Shown: positions 427-5,796 of the stretch, one piece after another
Layout of the letters: the number at the start of each line of letters is the position of its first letter
Position numbering within the stretch: position 1 is the stretch's first letter
Source of the DNA: a bacterium BMS3Abin14
Lineage (GTDB): Bacteria; BMS3Abin14
DNA length: 5,969 nt
Assembly: GCA_002897695.1 (NCBI GenBank)
Contig: BDTG01000001.1
Span: 1 to 5,969 of the forward strand
Reading direction: 5' to 3'
The notes under the pieces: model-generated
Told to the model about the DNA's origin: nothing
Database searches by the model: none
Seen by the model: the letters and a program-made list of their open reading frames with translations, nothing else
Translations under genes and position numbers: made by a program

Positions 427-1218
427 TTACCCATGTTCTATATGCTCTATGAACCTGTTAAAGGTTTCAAATACATATTTTCTTGAAGGTGTTTGAGAGA
501 GCTCTTGATCGAGTATCCAACCTATTTCATCGCGACCTTGATCGGAGAAAGCGCTCTTTAAGTTGGCCATCATGCTTTCATACCAAGCCCTGTCATTCCT
601 CTCCTTTATCTCACCAACTATTCGGTTTTCAAGCTCCTGTGGCCTATCTATCAGATCATACATATAGTGTTGATCTTTCCCCTTTTCCCGACTGGTTCGT
701 CTTCTTGTATAGGACAAAGCCTTTTGAGCAACAAACATACCTGGTTTCGGTACGACAATACTTCCCCTGAAAGAATTACCTTCATAACTTTCATCAACTT
801 TTAAAGTGAGAGTGTCCTCAATTAAGATATTCAAATAGCGTAAAGGTTGAGCAACAAGCCCCTTCTGGACTTCTACAGTTGATGTACGATCTGATCCCAG
901 GCTTGGAGTTAAAAACTCAATTACTGCTCTTGAATCCTTATTGTCGGGCCATGCATACTTTTCTGATGGTGGTTTAAAGTCTCCTGTTGGAACCCATTCG
1001 AACCCATGTTCCTTCAAAAGTTCCTTCATCGTTCTGTCTTTCTTTTTCAGAGCTCTACTAACGGCACAGTCCAGATCACGTGTGAATTCTAGTGAGATAA
1101 CATCCTGTCCGCAAAGGTACCTTCGATAAAAATACCAAGCCCATCCTCCAATGATAACGATATCATTTAAGTATGGGTTTATTGAATTAAGCGAATGCAT
1201 TAAACCGGACTTATCCAA
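427..1218 (-). CDS. Nucleotidyltransferase-fold toxin, AbiEii-like partner of the adjacent antitoxin
   Basis: This 263-residue protein has a minimal nucleotidyltransferase signature: a GGW turn (residues 24-26), TRDLD with paired acidic residues D48 and D50, and a further acidic strand VIEF (E101). A later segment, AQKAL-x4-RRR-x6-KD-x5-YDL (about 164-189), matches the K...R...KD..D pattern after the core in AbiEii-type proteins. In the AbiE family the nucleotidyltransferase is the growth-arresting toxin, and related enzymes add nucleotides to tRNA. The start is a TTG at 1216-1218, one base after the stop of the upstream antitoxin gene, with a weak GGGAAG 6 bases before it. An in-frame ATG at 1198-1200 lacks a ribosome binding site. 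Translational coupling is likely. The exact family could be a DUF1814-like or GSU2403-like branch. No clear terminator follows; an IS21 end lies 78 bases downstream. Confidence 0.72.
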   Translation of the reverse strand: MDKSGLMHSLNSINPYLNDIVIIGGWAWYFYRRYLCGQDVISLEFTRDLDCAVSRALKKKDRTMKELLKEHGFEWVPTGDFKPPSEKYAWPDNKDSRAVIEFLTPSLGSDRTSTVEVQKGLVAQPLRYLNILIEDTLTLKVDESYEGNSFRGSIVVPKPGMFVAQKALSYTRRRTSREKGKDQHYMYDLIDRPQELENRIVGEIKERNDRAWYESMMANLKSAFSDQGRDEIGWILDQELSQTPSRKYVFETFNRFIEHIEHG

Positions 1219-1219
1219 A

Positions 1220-2308
1220 TCACACTTCCCAGACGGGACTTATTAATCTTTCCAAAATTTCCCTAGCCTGTTCTTCACCTCTCTTTGGGAAAGTCATCAG
1301 GTCGAGATACATTTGGAGGTCTGAGACAATTGATAACCCTTGTATGTCCCTAACTCTGAAAAATGAAGAAATGCGATAATATGGCTTCATGAGGAAGAAG
1401 TTCGAGTCATATTCTTCATACTCAAGGTTAAGGGCATCTACCCATTTGTTTACTTCCCACTCTTCCTTCATTTTAATGAAAACATGAACGTCCTTAAAAA
1501 AAGCATAGGGAGCAACCAATGATGCAGCACCATGAAAGGATAGAGCATATTCACCAGGGATTCTGTTCTTGTTCCTTTGTAATATTTTAAGTATCTCGTT
1601 CCCATCATTCGCATGTATGTAGAATTTTTTCTGAACTACATTTTTTGCTTTTAACCGGTAAAAACTGACCCATTCCTCCAAAAGGTCATTGCGGTTTTGC
1701 AGCTCTATACCAGCATTAGATCGCCTAAGATATCCTGATTCTTCCAATTGTTTTAAGATTCTAGAAACAAGACCAGGGCTCAGGTCGAGATTGCTTGCAA
1801 GATCCCTTACTCCATCTTCAACAATCTTGTTTGCGAAGAGTTCTCTTAGAACTAAAGAAGACTTATCTGCAAAGAATGAGGGTGATGGTTCCTTAACCTC
1901 TTTGGATCGTTTCTTGCCACTGTGAAAAATTGAAACGAATGATGACCTCAGGAAAAAGTTGCCCGAAAGGTCAAGATAACTAACTTTCTTTGATCTAAGC
2001 CACTCCTGAGCAGACTCGCTGAGATGACTTGCGCCGAAGAATAGAACCTTCTTGTTCCCATCGACTTGCGATTCTAATATCCCCAATGCTCGTTCAACAG
2101 CAGCTTTAATCAGGGCCAGGCGAGAAGACAACTTGACTTCAGCATAAATGTCAAAATCAAGCAGATCTAGAACTTGTACGGAAAGAATGAAATCGAAACG
2201 AAATGAACCACTGGATTGAACTCTTTTCTTTCTAACAGAGTATCCAAGGTCTTTAAGTTTTGATACAAGCGCATCTTGTATTCGTTTTTCTAATTCAAAT
2301 TCGTTCAC
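1220..2308 (-). CDS. AbiEi-like antitoxin and transcriptional regulator with nuclease-fold N-terminus
   Basis: This 362-residue protein has three visible parts. Residues 1-130 look like a PD-(D/E)xK-type fold: FDFIL (D39), then YAEVK with E57 and K59, then the family-typical YLDLSGN (111-117). Residues about 150-207 form a winged helix-turn-helix (RDLASNLDLSPGLVSRILKQ, then a wing ending in LRRS). The remaining 155 residues form the C-terminal domain found in large type IV antitoxins. Such proteins are the first gene of AbiE-like pairs; they neutralise the nucleotidyltransferase and repress their own promoter. Start choice: GTG at 2306-2308 has AAGGTGG 5 bases before it, whereas GTG at 2315-2317 (365 residues) abuts a palindrome and has no such site. 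The toxin gene follows after one base. The operon is more AT-rich than the hip locus, which suggests transfer. The nuclease-like residues may be only structural. Confidence 0.72.
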   Translation of the reverse strand: MNEFELEKRIQDALVSKLKDLGYSVRKKRVQSSGSFRFDFILSVQVLDLLDFDIYAEVKLSSRLALIKAAVERALGILESQVDGNKKVLFFGASHLSESAQEWLRSKKVSYLDLSGNFFLRSSFVSIFHSGKKRSKEVKEPSPSFFADKSSLVLRELFANKIVEDGVRDLASNLDLSPGLVSRILKQLEESGYLRRSNAGIELQNRNDLLEEWVSFYRLKAKNVVQKKFYIHANDGNEILKILQRNKNRIPGEYALSFHGAASLVAPYAFFKDVHVFIKMKEEWEVNKWVDALNLEYEEYDSNFFLMKPYYRISSFFRVRDIQGLSIVSDLQMYLDLMTFPKRGEEQAREILERLISPVWEV

Positions 2309-2317
2309 TATTTCCAC

Positions 2318-2780: not shown

Positions 2781-3419
2781 TTATACTCTAAACTTTTTCC
2801 TGAAGACTCCAATCCCCACCAGGGCGGTTCCGAAAAGGAGGAGGGTGGAGGGTTCAGGAACCCTTCTAACCAGGTAGTCCTGCTTATCAGCATTTTTGGC
2901 AAGCATCCAGTTGTAGGTAAGAACGATGCTGCCGGGCTCGCCGGGCACACTATCCAGGATGCCTTGAACAGTAGTGGTATGAAATGTCGAGGTGAAGTTA
3001 CCGTCATCGATGAGAAGGTCATTATAATCTGTGAGGACTTCCCAGATGGCGACTTGCGCCTCAGCGGTCTTTGAGTCGTGATCTTCGTTTGGGTCGGGTG
3101 GGGCGTCCAGGTCTGCGTAATTTTCTGCAATCCATGCCATAATCAAATATTTATCGTCCGCTGGAAGCGGGTCAAGACTATACTCTGTCGACTCGTAAGG
3201 GGCGTCTTGAGCCAAATCGACACAAAAGGCCTGGTCATATGTTAGGCCCCCGTCAAAGGAAACATCGTAATCGAGATAAAACGTGCCAGTTGGTCCAGAG
3301 TTAACGTCGATGTATCCAAATGGAGAACTCCATCCGATCTGCAACGGGATGGCGTTTCCATTCACTGGCAAGGTCCAAGCAAGCGCAACTAAAGCCATGG
3401 CAAATACAATCTTTTTCAT
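2781..3419 (-). CDS. PEP-CTERM sorting-domain protein with thioester-like Cys/Gln pair
   Basis: This secreted protein has 212 residues. Residues 1-23 are a signal peptide (MKKIVFAMALVALAW, then a site after GNA). The C-terminus is a textbook PEP-CTERM signal: VPEP (187-190), a hydrophobic stretch LLLFGTALVGIGVF, then RKKFRV. Exosortase recognises this signal at the inner membrane. The body has AFCVDL (C66, the only cysteine), then YLIMAWIAENYA and TAEAQVAIWEVLTD (Q122). This C...Q-x-AIW layout resembles thioester adhesin domains, where Cys and Gln form a reactive internal bond; that reading is inference. The ATG at 3417-3419 is chosen because GGAGG lies 4 bases before it (plus 3424-3428). An upstream in-frame ATG at 3459-3461 would precede the predicted transcription start. 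The gene forms a single unit with a sigma-54 promoter and a terminator. Confidence 0.88.
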   Translation of the reverse strand: MKKIVFAMALVALAWTLPVNGNAIPLQIGWSSPFGYIDVNSGPTGTFYLDYDVSFDGGLTYDQAFCVDLAQDAPYESTEYSLDPLPADDKYLIMAWIAENYADLDAPPDPNEDHDSKTAEAQVAIWEVLTDYNDLLIDDGNFTSTFHTTTVQGILDSVPGEPGSIVLTYNWMLAKNADKQDYLVRRVPEPSTLLLFGTALVGIGVFRKKFRV

Positions 3420-3466
3420 AAGTCCTCCAGCTGTTAGTTCGTCGACCAGTTGACTCCACATATGTT

Positions 3467-3868: not shown

Positions 3869-3891
3869 GAAGCCACCGCCTGAAGCCACCT

Positions 3892-3930
3892 GGGGGCTTC
3901 TCGGGGCCAGAGAAGCCCCCGAAGTTTTGT
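3892..3930 (+). terminator. Strong rho-independent terminator before the hip locus
   Basis: GGGGGCTTCTC (3892-3902) pairs perfectly with GAGAAGCCCCC (3910-3920) across a 7-base loop, followed by GAAGTTTTGT. This 11-bp GC-rich stem would stop plus-strand read-through into the hip operon from the RAYT remnant side and so insulate its promoter. No intact plus-strand gene lies upstream, so it may be a relic of the remnant's own unit. Confidence 0.72.
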
Positions 3931-3938
3931 TATTTACA

Positions 3939-3958
3939 TTATACCTTTTAGGGTATAA
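3939..3958. promoter_or_regulatory. HipB operator O1 (predicted)
   Basis: TTATACCTTTTAGGGTATAA: the 7-base arms TTATACC and GGTATAA pair perfectly. First of four related palindromes upstream of hipB. It is the farthest from the gene and lies just past the insulating terminator. Confidence 0.7.
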
Positions 3959-3980
3959 CTAACGATCTTTAATAGGCCAA

Positions 3981-4000
3981 TTGCACCCGAAGGGGTATAG
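3981..4000. promoter_or_regulatory. HipB operator O2 (predicted)
   Basis: TTGCACCCGAAGGGGTATAG: the right arm GGGTATA is intact and the left arm TTGCACCC is degenerate. Probably the weakest of the four sites. It starts exactly 42 bp after O1. Confidence 0.62.
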
Positions 4001-4002
4001 TT

Positions 4003-4016
4003 TGCAAATATTTGCA
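4003..4016. repeat. 14-bp palindrome between O2 and O3
   Basis: TGCAAATATTTGCA is a perfect palindrome in the linker between O2 and O3, ending just before the predicted -35 box. Its sequence is unrelated to the TATACCC operators. It could bind another regulator or bend the DNA; no assignment is possible. Confidence 0.4.
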
Positions 4017-4045
4017 TTGACGTTATACCCTATAGGGTGTAATGT
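4017..4045 (+). promoter_or_regulatory. Predicted hip operon promoter overlapping O3
   Basis: TTGACG (4017-4022) and TAATGT (4040-4045) are separated by exactly 17 bases. O3 (4023-4042) fills the spacer and touches both boxes, so its occupation would exclude RNA polymerase. Transcription would start near 4052, putting O4 in the leader. The -10 match is modest. Confidence 0.5.
4023..4042. promoter_or_regulatory. HipB operator O3 (predicted)
   Basis: TTATACCCTATAGGGTGTAA: near-perfect 8-base arms with a single mismatch, so probably a strong site. It lies in the promoter spacer and starts 42 bp after O2. Confidence 0.72.
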
Positions 4046-4064
4046 TCCCGTAAGTTTATCTGTA

Positions 4065-4084
4065 CTATACCCGAAGGGGTATAT
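4065..4084. promoter_or_regulatory. HipB operator O4 (predicted)
   Basis: CTATACCCGAAGGGGTATAT: arms TATACCC and GGGTATA in good symmetry. It starts 42 bp after O3. It lies in the transcript leader and contains AAGGGG, which could act as a ribosome binding site for an ATG at 4089. Confidence 0.7.
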
Positions 4085-4115
4085 CTCGATGAAATATAAT
4101 ATGGAGTTGACCGAT

Positions 4116-4313
4116 ATGATTACTGGACAAAAGGTAAAAGAGCTGAGAAAGCGCACAGGCCTTACCCAAGAGGCTCTGGCCGTTAGGAGCGGTGTCGGAC
4201 TGCGATTCGTTCGGGAACTCGAACAGGGGAAGAATACGGTGCGCATGGACAAAGTCGACCAGGTGCTTGCGCTGTTCGGATACCACCTGGAACCTGTCAA
4301 GGACAAGATCTAA
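4116..4313 (+). CDS. hipB: HipB-like HTH antitoxin/repressor
   Basis: This 65-residue protein is almost entirely an Xre/Cro-type helix-turn-helix: LTQEALAVRSGVGLRFVREL (16-35) then EQGKNTVRMDKVDQVLALFG, the conserved core of HipB regulators. HipB dimers bind palindromic operators upstream of their own operon and help hold the Hip kinase. Four such operators lie just upstream. ATG 4116 is chosen because GGAG (4103-4106) precedes it by 9 bases. ATG 4089 (74 residues, after AAGGGG in O4) is a real alternative. A still longer reading from a TTG at 3981 would translate through the operators and is rejected. The HipS gene starts one base after the stop, so the two are co-transcribed. Function is inferred from the fold and neighbours. 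Confidence 0.85.
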   Translation: MITGQKVKELRKRTGLTQEALAVRSGVGLRFVRELEQGKNTVRMDKVDQVLALFGYHLEPVKDKI

Positions 4314-4314
4314 A

Positions 4315-4638
4315 ATGGAAGATCAGGGCAGGGAGGCAGTCATAATGTACAAGGACCGCCGAGCGGGTATTATCGAGGAGATCTCTGCAGGTTATCGCTT
4401 CACGTACGATCCCGGCTTTCTGCCAGGTGGGGAACCCATCTCTGTCTCCTTCCCTCTACAGGAAGAACCGTTTGAAAGTGAAGAGCTGTTCCCTTTCTTC
4501 AAGGGCCTCCTGCCTGAAGGCTGGTACCGGGAGATCGTTTCCAAAAAGCTCAAGATAGACAAAAAGGATCAGTTTGGGTTTCTGATGAACGCCTGTGAGG
4601 ACACAATTGGCGCTGTGTGGATAAGGCCATATGGATGA
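4315..4638 (+). CDS. hipS: HipS-like protein: free-standing HipA N-terminal subdomain
   Basis: This 107-residue protein corresponds to the N-subdomain 1 of HipA, here as a separate gene. Family landmarks are YKDRRAGIIEE (12-22), FTYD (29-32), ISVSFPL (42-48), FFKGLLPEGW (61-70), the IDKKDQFGFL turn (81-90) and EDTIGAVWI (95-103). In the E. coli O127 HipBST system the matching HipS protein, not HipB, neutralises the kinase, and a tryptophan in this region is reported to act at the kinase active site; W70 is the natural candidate here. ATG 4315 keeps the first beta strand (EAVIMY) but has only a distant AAGGA. ATG 4345 has GGGAGG 8 bases upstream and would give 97 residues. The stop overlaps the ribosome binding site of the next gene. 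Confidence 0.8.
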   Translation: MEDQGREAVIMYKDRRAGIIEEISAGYRFTYDPGFLPGGEPISVSFPLQEEPFESEELFPFFKGLLPEGWYREIVSKKLKIDKKDQFGFLMNACEDTIGAVWIRPYG

Positions 4639-4641
4639 GGA
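4636..4641 (+). promoter_or_regulatory. Ribosome binding site of hipT containing the hipS stop codon
   Basis: TGAGGA contains the TGA that ends hipS (4636-4638) and is 7 bases from ATG 4649. Ribosomes finishing hipS stop on this site, an arrangement that favours re-initiation and ties kinase synthesis to prior synthesis of its inhibitor. Confidence 0.65.
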
Positions 4642-4648
4642 CTACAAC

Positions 4649-5557
4649 ATGAACTGCGGAATATGCAGTAAAACAGGTGGAGAGGAGAAAGGCTACCACC
4701 GGAAGTGCCTGAGAGCCCTCTTCGCCAAACCCACCCTTCCTGAAATAGACCTCACCCTCTCTGAAGTTCCATTGGAGGCCCAGAAAATGGCCGGCAAGAT
4801 GTCCATCTCGGGTGTTCAGCCGAAGCTCATCATGTCACTGGAGAAGGGCCGTCTGGCGCCTGTTTCTTCCGGGGGCCTTTATATCCTCAAACCACAGACG
4901 GAAGCCTTCAGAAGCCTTCCCGAAAACGAGAACATCTGCATGAACATCGCCCAGGAGCTGAAGATCGAAGTTCCACCCCATGGTCTGTTCGAACTGGCAG
5001 ACGGAACGATGGCATACCTTGTCAAACGCTTCGACCGTATTACTCCAAACGACAGGAAAAGATGCGAGGACTTTTCGCAAATACTGGGCCTCGACAAATA
5101 CAAAGGATCTGTAGAGCAGATTAGCCGCAGGTTGATAGAAGTATCCGAATTTCCGGGAATCGACGCTCAACTGCTTTTTGAGAGGATCCTTCTGAACTTC
5201 CTTCTGGGAAATGGAGATGCCCACCTGAAGAACTATTCGATCCTGGAGGACAACACAGGAGAATTGCGGCTATCACCAGCCTACGACATCGTCTGTTCCA
5301 GGCTGGTCATCCCGGATGAAGAGGATTCTGCTCTTGCCATCAATGGAAAGCGCAACAGGATCACCAGAAAAGATTTAGAAAAGTTATCAGCGTACTTAGA
5401 AATCCCTGAAAAGGCTAAGGCTGATATCTTTAAAAGAATGTCAGCTGTAAAGGATCTTGCGGAACAGGAGATCAATCGCTCCAGACTGGGGGCGAAGGAT
5501 AAAGAGACATTTTTTGATATCATTCAGGAGCGGTATTCCAGGATCTACTTGATCTGA
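4649..5557 (+). CDS. hipT: HipT-like serine/threonine kinase toxin (HipA C-terminal core)
   Basis: This 302-residue protein is a Hip kinase lacking N-subdomain 1. In order: a small Cys/His motif CGIC-x10-H-x2-C (C3, C6, H17, C20); the Gly-rich loop SISGVQPKL (52-60) with the SIS pair that HipT kinases autophosphorylate; the ATP lysine in LYILKP (K81); VKRFDR (126-131); the catalytic loop GNGDAHLKN with D190 and N195; and AYD with metal-binding D213. All key kinase residues are present, so it should be active. Known Hip kinases phosphorylate tRNA synthetases (GltX for HipA, TrpS for E. coli HipT); the substrate here is unknown. ATG 4649 has TGAGGA (4636-4641) 7 bases before it and matches the family start. 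ATG 4631 would add six residues and overlap hipS by 8 bases. The 3' end overlaps a convergent regulator gene by 13 bases. Confidence 0.88.
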   Translation: MNCGICSKTGGEEKGYHRKCLRALFAKPTLPEIDLTLSEVPLEAQKMAGKMSISGVQPKLIMSLEKGRLAPVSSGGLYILKPQTEAFRSLPENENICMNIAQELKIEVPPHGLFELADGTMAYLVKRFDRITPNDRKRCEDFSQILGLDKYKGSVEQISRRLIEVSEFPGIDAQLLFERILLNFLLGNGDAHLKNYSILEDNTGELRLSPAYDIVCSRLVIPDEEDSALAINGKRNRITRKDLEKLSAYLEIPEKAKADIFKRMSAVKDLAEQEINRSRLGAKDKETFFDIIQERYSRIYLI

Positions 5558-5778
5558 TTAAATAGGCTATTCACGGAAACACCCAAAGCATCCGCCATCT
5601 TCTTCAGGTTGATCGCAGAGACGTTCCGCTCCCCCCGCTCGACAGATCCCATGTAGGATCGGTTCAGGCCACGCGCATGGGCAAAATCTTCCTGTGCAAT
5701 CCCACGATCATTCCTGAGCTCGCGAATGCGCTTACCCAGAGCATCCAGGAAGATCATCTGTTCCTCATTGTATTGCAT
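5545..5778 (-). CDS. Small Xre-family HTH regulator
   Basis: This 77-residue DNA-binding protein has KRIRELRNDRGIAQEDFAHA (16-35) followed by RGLNRSYMGSVERGERNVSA, a canonical Xre/Cro helix-turn-helix, then a short helix NLKKMADALGVSVNSLFNQI. Nothing beyond the DNA-binding domain is present. ATG at 5776-5778 is used; a TTG at 5794-5796 would add six residues, and neither has a good ribosome binding site. The gene is convergent with hipT and the two overlap by 13 bases at their 3' ends, with no terminator between them. It could be a stand-alone regulator, the start of a gene group to the left of its promoter lost from view, or a second control input on the hip locus. No partner gene is visible. 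Confidence 0.8.
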   Translation of the reverse strand: MQYNEEQMIFLDALGKRIRELRNDRGIAQEDFAHARGLNRSYMGSVERGERNVSAINLKKMADALGVSVNSLFNQIK

Positions 5779-5796
5779 GGATAAAGGTTGGCTCAA

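Follow-up and report, generated by a model that had tools for sequence, protein, structure and literature searches.

Four candidate HipB operators at 42-bp steps upstream of a hipBST operon

Four palindromic sites, each step between them being exactly 42 bp, precede a hipBST operon in the DNA analysed here (the window, one entire contig of 5,969 bp from a draft genome), and together they probably form an array for autorepression by HipB or HipBST that lies on one face of the helix, with one operator placed in the promoter. Since related loci keep such sites 3, 4, 5 or 7 helical turns apart, one-face placement appears to be a rule of self-repression that is conserved in many bacterial phyla. 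The sites, their spacing, the conservation of its phase and the type of the operon are read directly from sequence. HipBST is a three-component system with poorly understood autoregulation. Operator spacing in toxin-antitoxin promoters has usually been treated one system at a time; the loci compared here share one motif and a whole-turn rule across phyla, which opens a direct test of whether higher-order HipBST complexes sense the level of toxin. In the papers open to search, a whole-turn rule for HipBST was not found stated.

The candidate operator array and its probable promoter

The sites share the consensus TATACCC-N4-GGGTATA, an 18-bp core that starts at 3940, 3982, 4024 and 4066 and is matched by operators 1-4 at 13/14, 12/14, 13/14 and 14/14 positions, respectively (Table 1). 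A preliminary description of this DNA placed four 20-bp palindromes at 3939, 3981, 4023 and 4065 with 42-bp steps, and these coordinates and steps are confirmed. All four sites are present, but the word palindrome applies strictly to operator 4 only, the arms of operators 1-3 being imperfect (6/7, 5/7, 6/7 and 7/7 complementary pairs in operators 1-4). In a scan of the whole 2.28-Mb genome the best four matches to the consensus are operators 1-4, and 300 first-order shuffled versions of the window contained no site scoring at least 12/14. Because these best matches also directly precede hipB, their earlier designation as HipB operators is upheld: the sites most likely serve the HipB-like Xre repressor encoded next to them. 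If four non-overlapping sites are placed at random in 250 bp, all three steps come out equal with a probability of about 1.3e-4. The inter-site sequences are mutually dissimilar (5-8/24 bases identical) and hence not copies of one another, which rules out a 42-bp unit recently duplicated in tandem as the source of the spacing. No Rfam matches to RNA elements were found in the window.

Table 1. Features of the operator array and of the operon that follows it (window coordinates)
Feature	Position	Strand	Description
Intrinsic-terminator-like hairpin	3891..3921	+	Upstream of the array; parts it from upstream transcription
Operator 1	3939..3958	.	TTATACCTTTTAGGGTATAA; most distal; centre 3948.5; homologous site in sister locus L003
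Operator 2	3981..4000	.	TTGCACCCGAAGGGGTATAG; centre 3990.5; weakest palindrome, 5/7 arm pairs; homologous site in L003
Probable -35 box	4017..4022	+	TTGACG; abuts operator 3
Operator 3	4023..4042	.	TTATACCCTATAGGGTGTAA; centre 4032.5; within the probable hipBST promoter
Probable -10 region	4038..4045	+	Overlaps right arm of operator 3; weak match in the window
Operator 4	4065..4084	.	CTATACCCGAAGGGGTATAT; centre 4074.5; perfect palindrome; 18-mer core identical in L003
hipB	4116..4313	+	65-aa Xre/HTH repressor; NCBIfam TIGR03070 couple_hipB, 75.7 bits, above cut-off; Pfam HTH_3/HTH_31
hipS	4315..4638	+	HipA N-terminal-domain protein, 107 aa; Pfam Couple_hipA 1.6e-25
hipT	4631..5557	+	HipA_C kinase toxin without N-subdomain 1, 308 aa; Pfam HipA_C 1.9e-45

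Because a generic promoter scan of the window did not call the hipBST promoter, whose hexamers are weak, its placement is one that we infer: the promoter would embed operator 3, and operator 4 would lie past the probable transcription start. The -10 region can be read either as TGTAAT (4038-4043), with a 15-bp spacer, or as TAATGT (4040-4045), with a 17-bp spacer. Related loci repeat this arrangement, as a hexamer resembling TTGACA in at least 4/6 positions ends one base before either promoter-proximal operator in 26 of 38 loci, other offsets giving 0-9, and a -10-like hexamer is found 17 bp further on in 33 loci, a signal to which the operator's own TATA contributes.

The hipBST operon and its known counterparts

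The genes were previously taken to be of the hipBA type, but the toxin is divided between two ORFs. Couple_hipA is found in the 107-aa protein only and HipA_C in the 308-aa protein only, so the single full-length HipA toxin of hipBA is lacking, which rules out hipBA membership, and the sites are TATACCC-N4-GGGTATA rather than the TATCC-N8-GGATA operators of hipBA. The operon is a three-gene hipBST with a split hipA, in the order hipB-hipS-hipT that its relatives also show, and fits the published definition (PMC8262856). HipT carries the kinase motifs with serine(s) beside the Gly-rich loop: SIS (MSISGVQPK), NGDAHLKN and SPAYD, all conserved in the alignment to HipT structures. Its score is 163 bits with Legionella HipT, its closest solved relative, 73 bits with E. 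coli HipT and about 30 with HipA, and no close relatives of HipT were found in viral contigs. The best solved relative of the hipB product is likewise HipB of Legionella; a further in-frame ATG of hipB is present at 4089. HipS, the probable antitoxin, aligns with HipS of E. coli and Legionella, and Trp65 of the E. coli protein, a residue known from a structure paper, stands opposite a Trp.

The published precedent for the present array is the split-hipA operon hipBST of Legionella pneumophila, where HipB binds three evenly spaced inverted repeats, operators O1-O3, upstream of hipB (PMC10653801); these have been termed, in a published paper, the first HipBST operators found. Compared by that published description, the Legionella array has three operators with wider spacing, whereas four are found here at 42 bp; its 18-nt sites with 53-bp gaps give computed steps of about 71 bp, which fit the seven-turn class of 71-72 bp described below. 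In the accessible text of the same paper no discussion of the helical phase of the operators was found, the target of Legionella HipT is said to differ from TrpS of the E. coli type, and the Legionella operator motif is stated to be absent upstream of E. coli hipBST (PMC10653801). The annotation of HipT on the Legionella plasmid locus is that of an injected effector. The hipBST operon of E. coli O127:H6 has the same gene order and domain split as the operon described here; in that system HipB represses, HipS neutralises and HipT is the kinase (PMC10627512, PMC6581861).

The preliminary description also pointed to E. coli hipBA, and in part rightly: in strain K-12 four palindromes for an Xre-type HipB lie upstream of hipB, one of them just 3' of a TTGACT -35-like box. 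That system, however, has two genes, an unsplit hipA and TATCC-N8-GGATA operators with a different half-site, and the analogy fails in geometry because its operator steps of 28, 39 and 28 bp (about 2.7, 3.7 and 2.7 turns) are not whole turns, unlike those found here. E. coli hipBA is thus ruled out as an in-phase precedent.

Spacing in homologous loci

Relatives were gathered by a HipT search, and the DNA upstream of hipB was taken from 45 loci, which left 42 after removal of three duplicates; searches of small phyla contributed three loci, one of them a duplicate promoter. Scanning with a symmetrical weight matrix, at a threshold expected to pass about 0.05 sites per 400 bp by chance, yielded 135 sites and 94 steps in the 42 loci, and a motif of the TATACCC/GGGTATA type was found upstream of hipB in nearly all the hipBST relatives gathered. 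When three loci with a divergent operator (Planctomycetia, Nealsonbacteria and Planctomycetaceae) were left out, 83 of the remaining 86 steps fell at 30-31 bp (n=23), 40-43 bp (n=50), 51-52 bp (n=7) or 71-72 bp (n=3), which correspond to 3, 4, 5 and 7 turns of about 10.3-10.4 bp each; the other three measure 16, 27 and 34 bp. Periodicity is strongest at about 10.45 bp (Rayleigh R 0.86), and the whole-turn fit peaks near 10.3-10.4 bp.

Both members of the window's genus have steps of 42-42-42 bp. In the sister genus member, L003, the 144 bp of the array are free of indels at 74% identity; the three spacers are 46%, 88% and 54% identical, so the spacing has been kept even across a spacer at 46%, and the interval between operator 4 and hipB differs by 2 bp. 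Steps are mostly 40-41 bp in loci from Fibrobacterota, Spirochaetota, Bacillota and Bacteroidota. Omnitrophota-like loci mix 30-31, 41-42 and 51-52 bp, the distal step varying among loci by whole turns. Seven Bacteroidota plasmid loci had been held out of motif building: in six of them three sites recur at 40-41 bp, with two sub-threshold sites in one of these six, and the seventh locus has none. Steps that are inherited together are not independent, and 12 lineages were therefore represented by a single sampled locus each, part of the lineage labels being assumed. At 10.3 bp per turn, about 24 of the 26 steps in such a sample deviate from whole turns by no more than 1.5 bp, a fit that was not equalled in any of 200,000 jittered sets. 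Because whole-turn steps also prevail in homologous loci, the earlier idea that all sites face the same side of the helix receives strong comparative support. Comparison with related genomes, proposed together with that idea, bears out whole-turn spacing widely, but the exact 42 bp is conserved in this genus only.

Shared ancestry alone, with 41-42 bp steps as an old layout inherited with the operon and spread horizontally that needs no helical phase, is an unlikely explanation. The commonest step in distant lineages is indeed 40-42 bp, and a stricter phase test that counts each step-size class as a single evolutionary event gives only p of about 0.03; against this, spacer sequences have diverged at unchanged length, and step changes go by whole turns (31, 41, 52 and 72 bp).

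In the three loci left out of the count (L047, L050 and L059) a different palindrome, TTCCCGATCGGGAA, lies upstream of hipB at wider and irregular steps, mostly of 61-110 bp, and is a putative alternative type of HipB operator.

Proposed mechanism and other features of the contig

We infer binding by this HipB, cooperativity, bending and repression as follows. HipB dimers, alone or with HipT and HipS, would occupy the four sites, about 30 bp downstream of which hipBST begins, and the bound complexes would share one DNA face because an integral number of helical turns separates the site centres; same-face binding of this kind is well supported by the comparison of loci. Occupation of operator 3, lying between the -35 and -10 boxes, would block RNA polymerase directly. 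In-phase neighbours may reinforce repression, either through contacts between adjacent complexes or because bends made by HipB, all pointing one way, would sum to a compact and curved promoter, and when HipB or HipBST complexes become scarce the array would empty and the operon would be expressed again. The proposed contacts or additive bending draw on E. coli, where HipB introduces a bend of about 70 degrees into its operator (review PMC3920265), HipBST hexamers oligomerise in solution, and the promoter is repressed by HipBST or HipB alone, lower levels sufficing for HipBST or HipBT (PMC10627512). Several observations weigh against this explanation: the stricter phase test above gives only p of about 0.03, the promoter hexamers of the window are weak, Legionella gel shifts suggested intermediate occupancy and not strong cooperativity (PMC10653801), and E. 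coli hipBA functions with non-integral spacing. The variable step sizes (3-7 turns) count against one rigid contact between neighbours and favour a same-face requirement.

A bolder and tentative extension is that in HipBST promoters of many phyla operators are gained, lost and moved by full helical turns only, because the bound HipB-HipS-HipT complexes form a one-sided curved array whose assembly reports free kinase, an integral-turn code distinct from hipBA.

Phasing might alternatively be set relative to RNA polymerase and not among HipB complexes. Class I activators use in-phase positions about 61 and 103 bp before the start, and if transcription starts near 4051 the centres of operators 2 and 1 fall near -61 and -103, so that HipB could touch the polymerase from upstream while operator 3 represses, which would make a two-way switch. 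Upstream sites across relatives also lie whole turns from the promoter-embedded operator. This reading seems quite improbable, as HipB-type regulators studied to date are described as repressors, the -61 and -103 positions depend on the assumed start, and 31-bp steps put sites near -51, a poorer fit to activation. That the operators act independently, extra copies just raising local HipB concentration or occupancy with equal spacing in the window by coincidence, is very hard to credit: separate binding of HipB by the Legionella operators (PMC10653801) and the few deviating loci (16, 27, 34 bp) would agree with it, but the chance of three equal steps is about 1e-4 and the pattern returns in relatives and held-out loci.

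Several further features are found on the contig. A nucleotidyltransferase (NTP_transf_8; 430-1218, minus strand) adjoins an AbiEi-like winged-helix protein (1223-2317, minus strand), and on this small contig the two probably constitute a type IV toxin-antitoxin pair similar to AbiE. At 227-331 there are tandem repeats (TGTCCAGTTTG-) in five copies 23-24 bp apart, beside a minus-strand frame that lies at the edge of the contig and presumably resembles the start of an IS21-type transposase; the 39-aa piece of this frame has no Pfam match. A second Xre-type HTH regulator (5548-5796, minus strand), convergent to hipT, is similar to control proteins of restriction-modification systems, and 2784-3461 (minus strand) encodes a secreted protein of the PEP-CTERM type that weakly matches a thioester domain.
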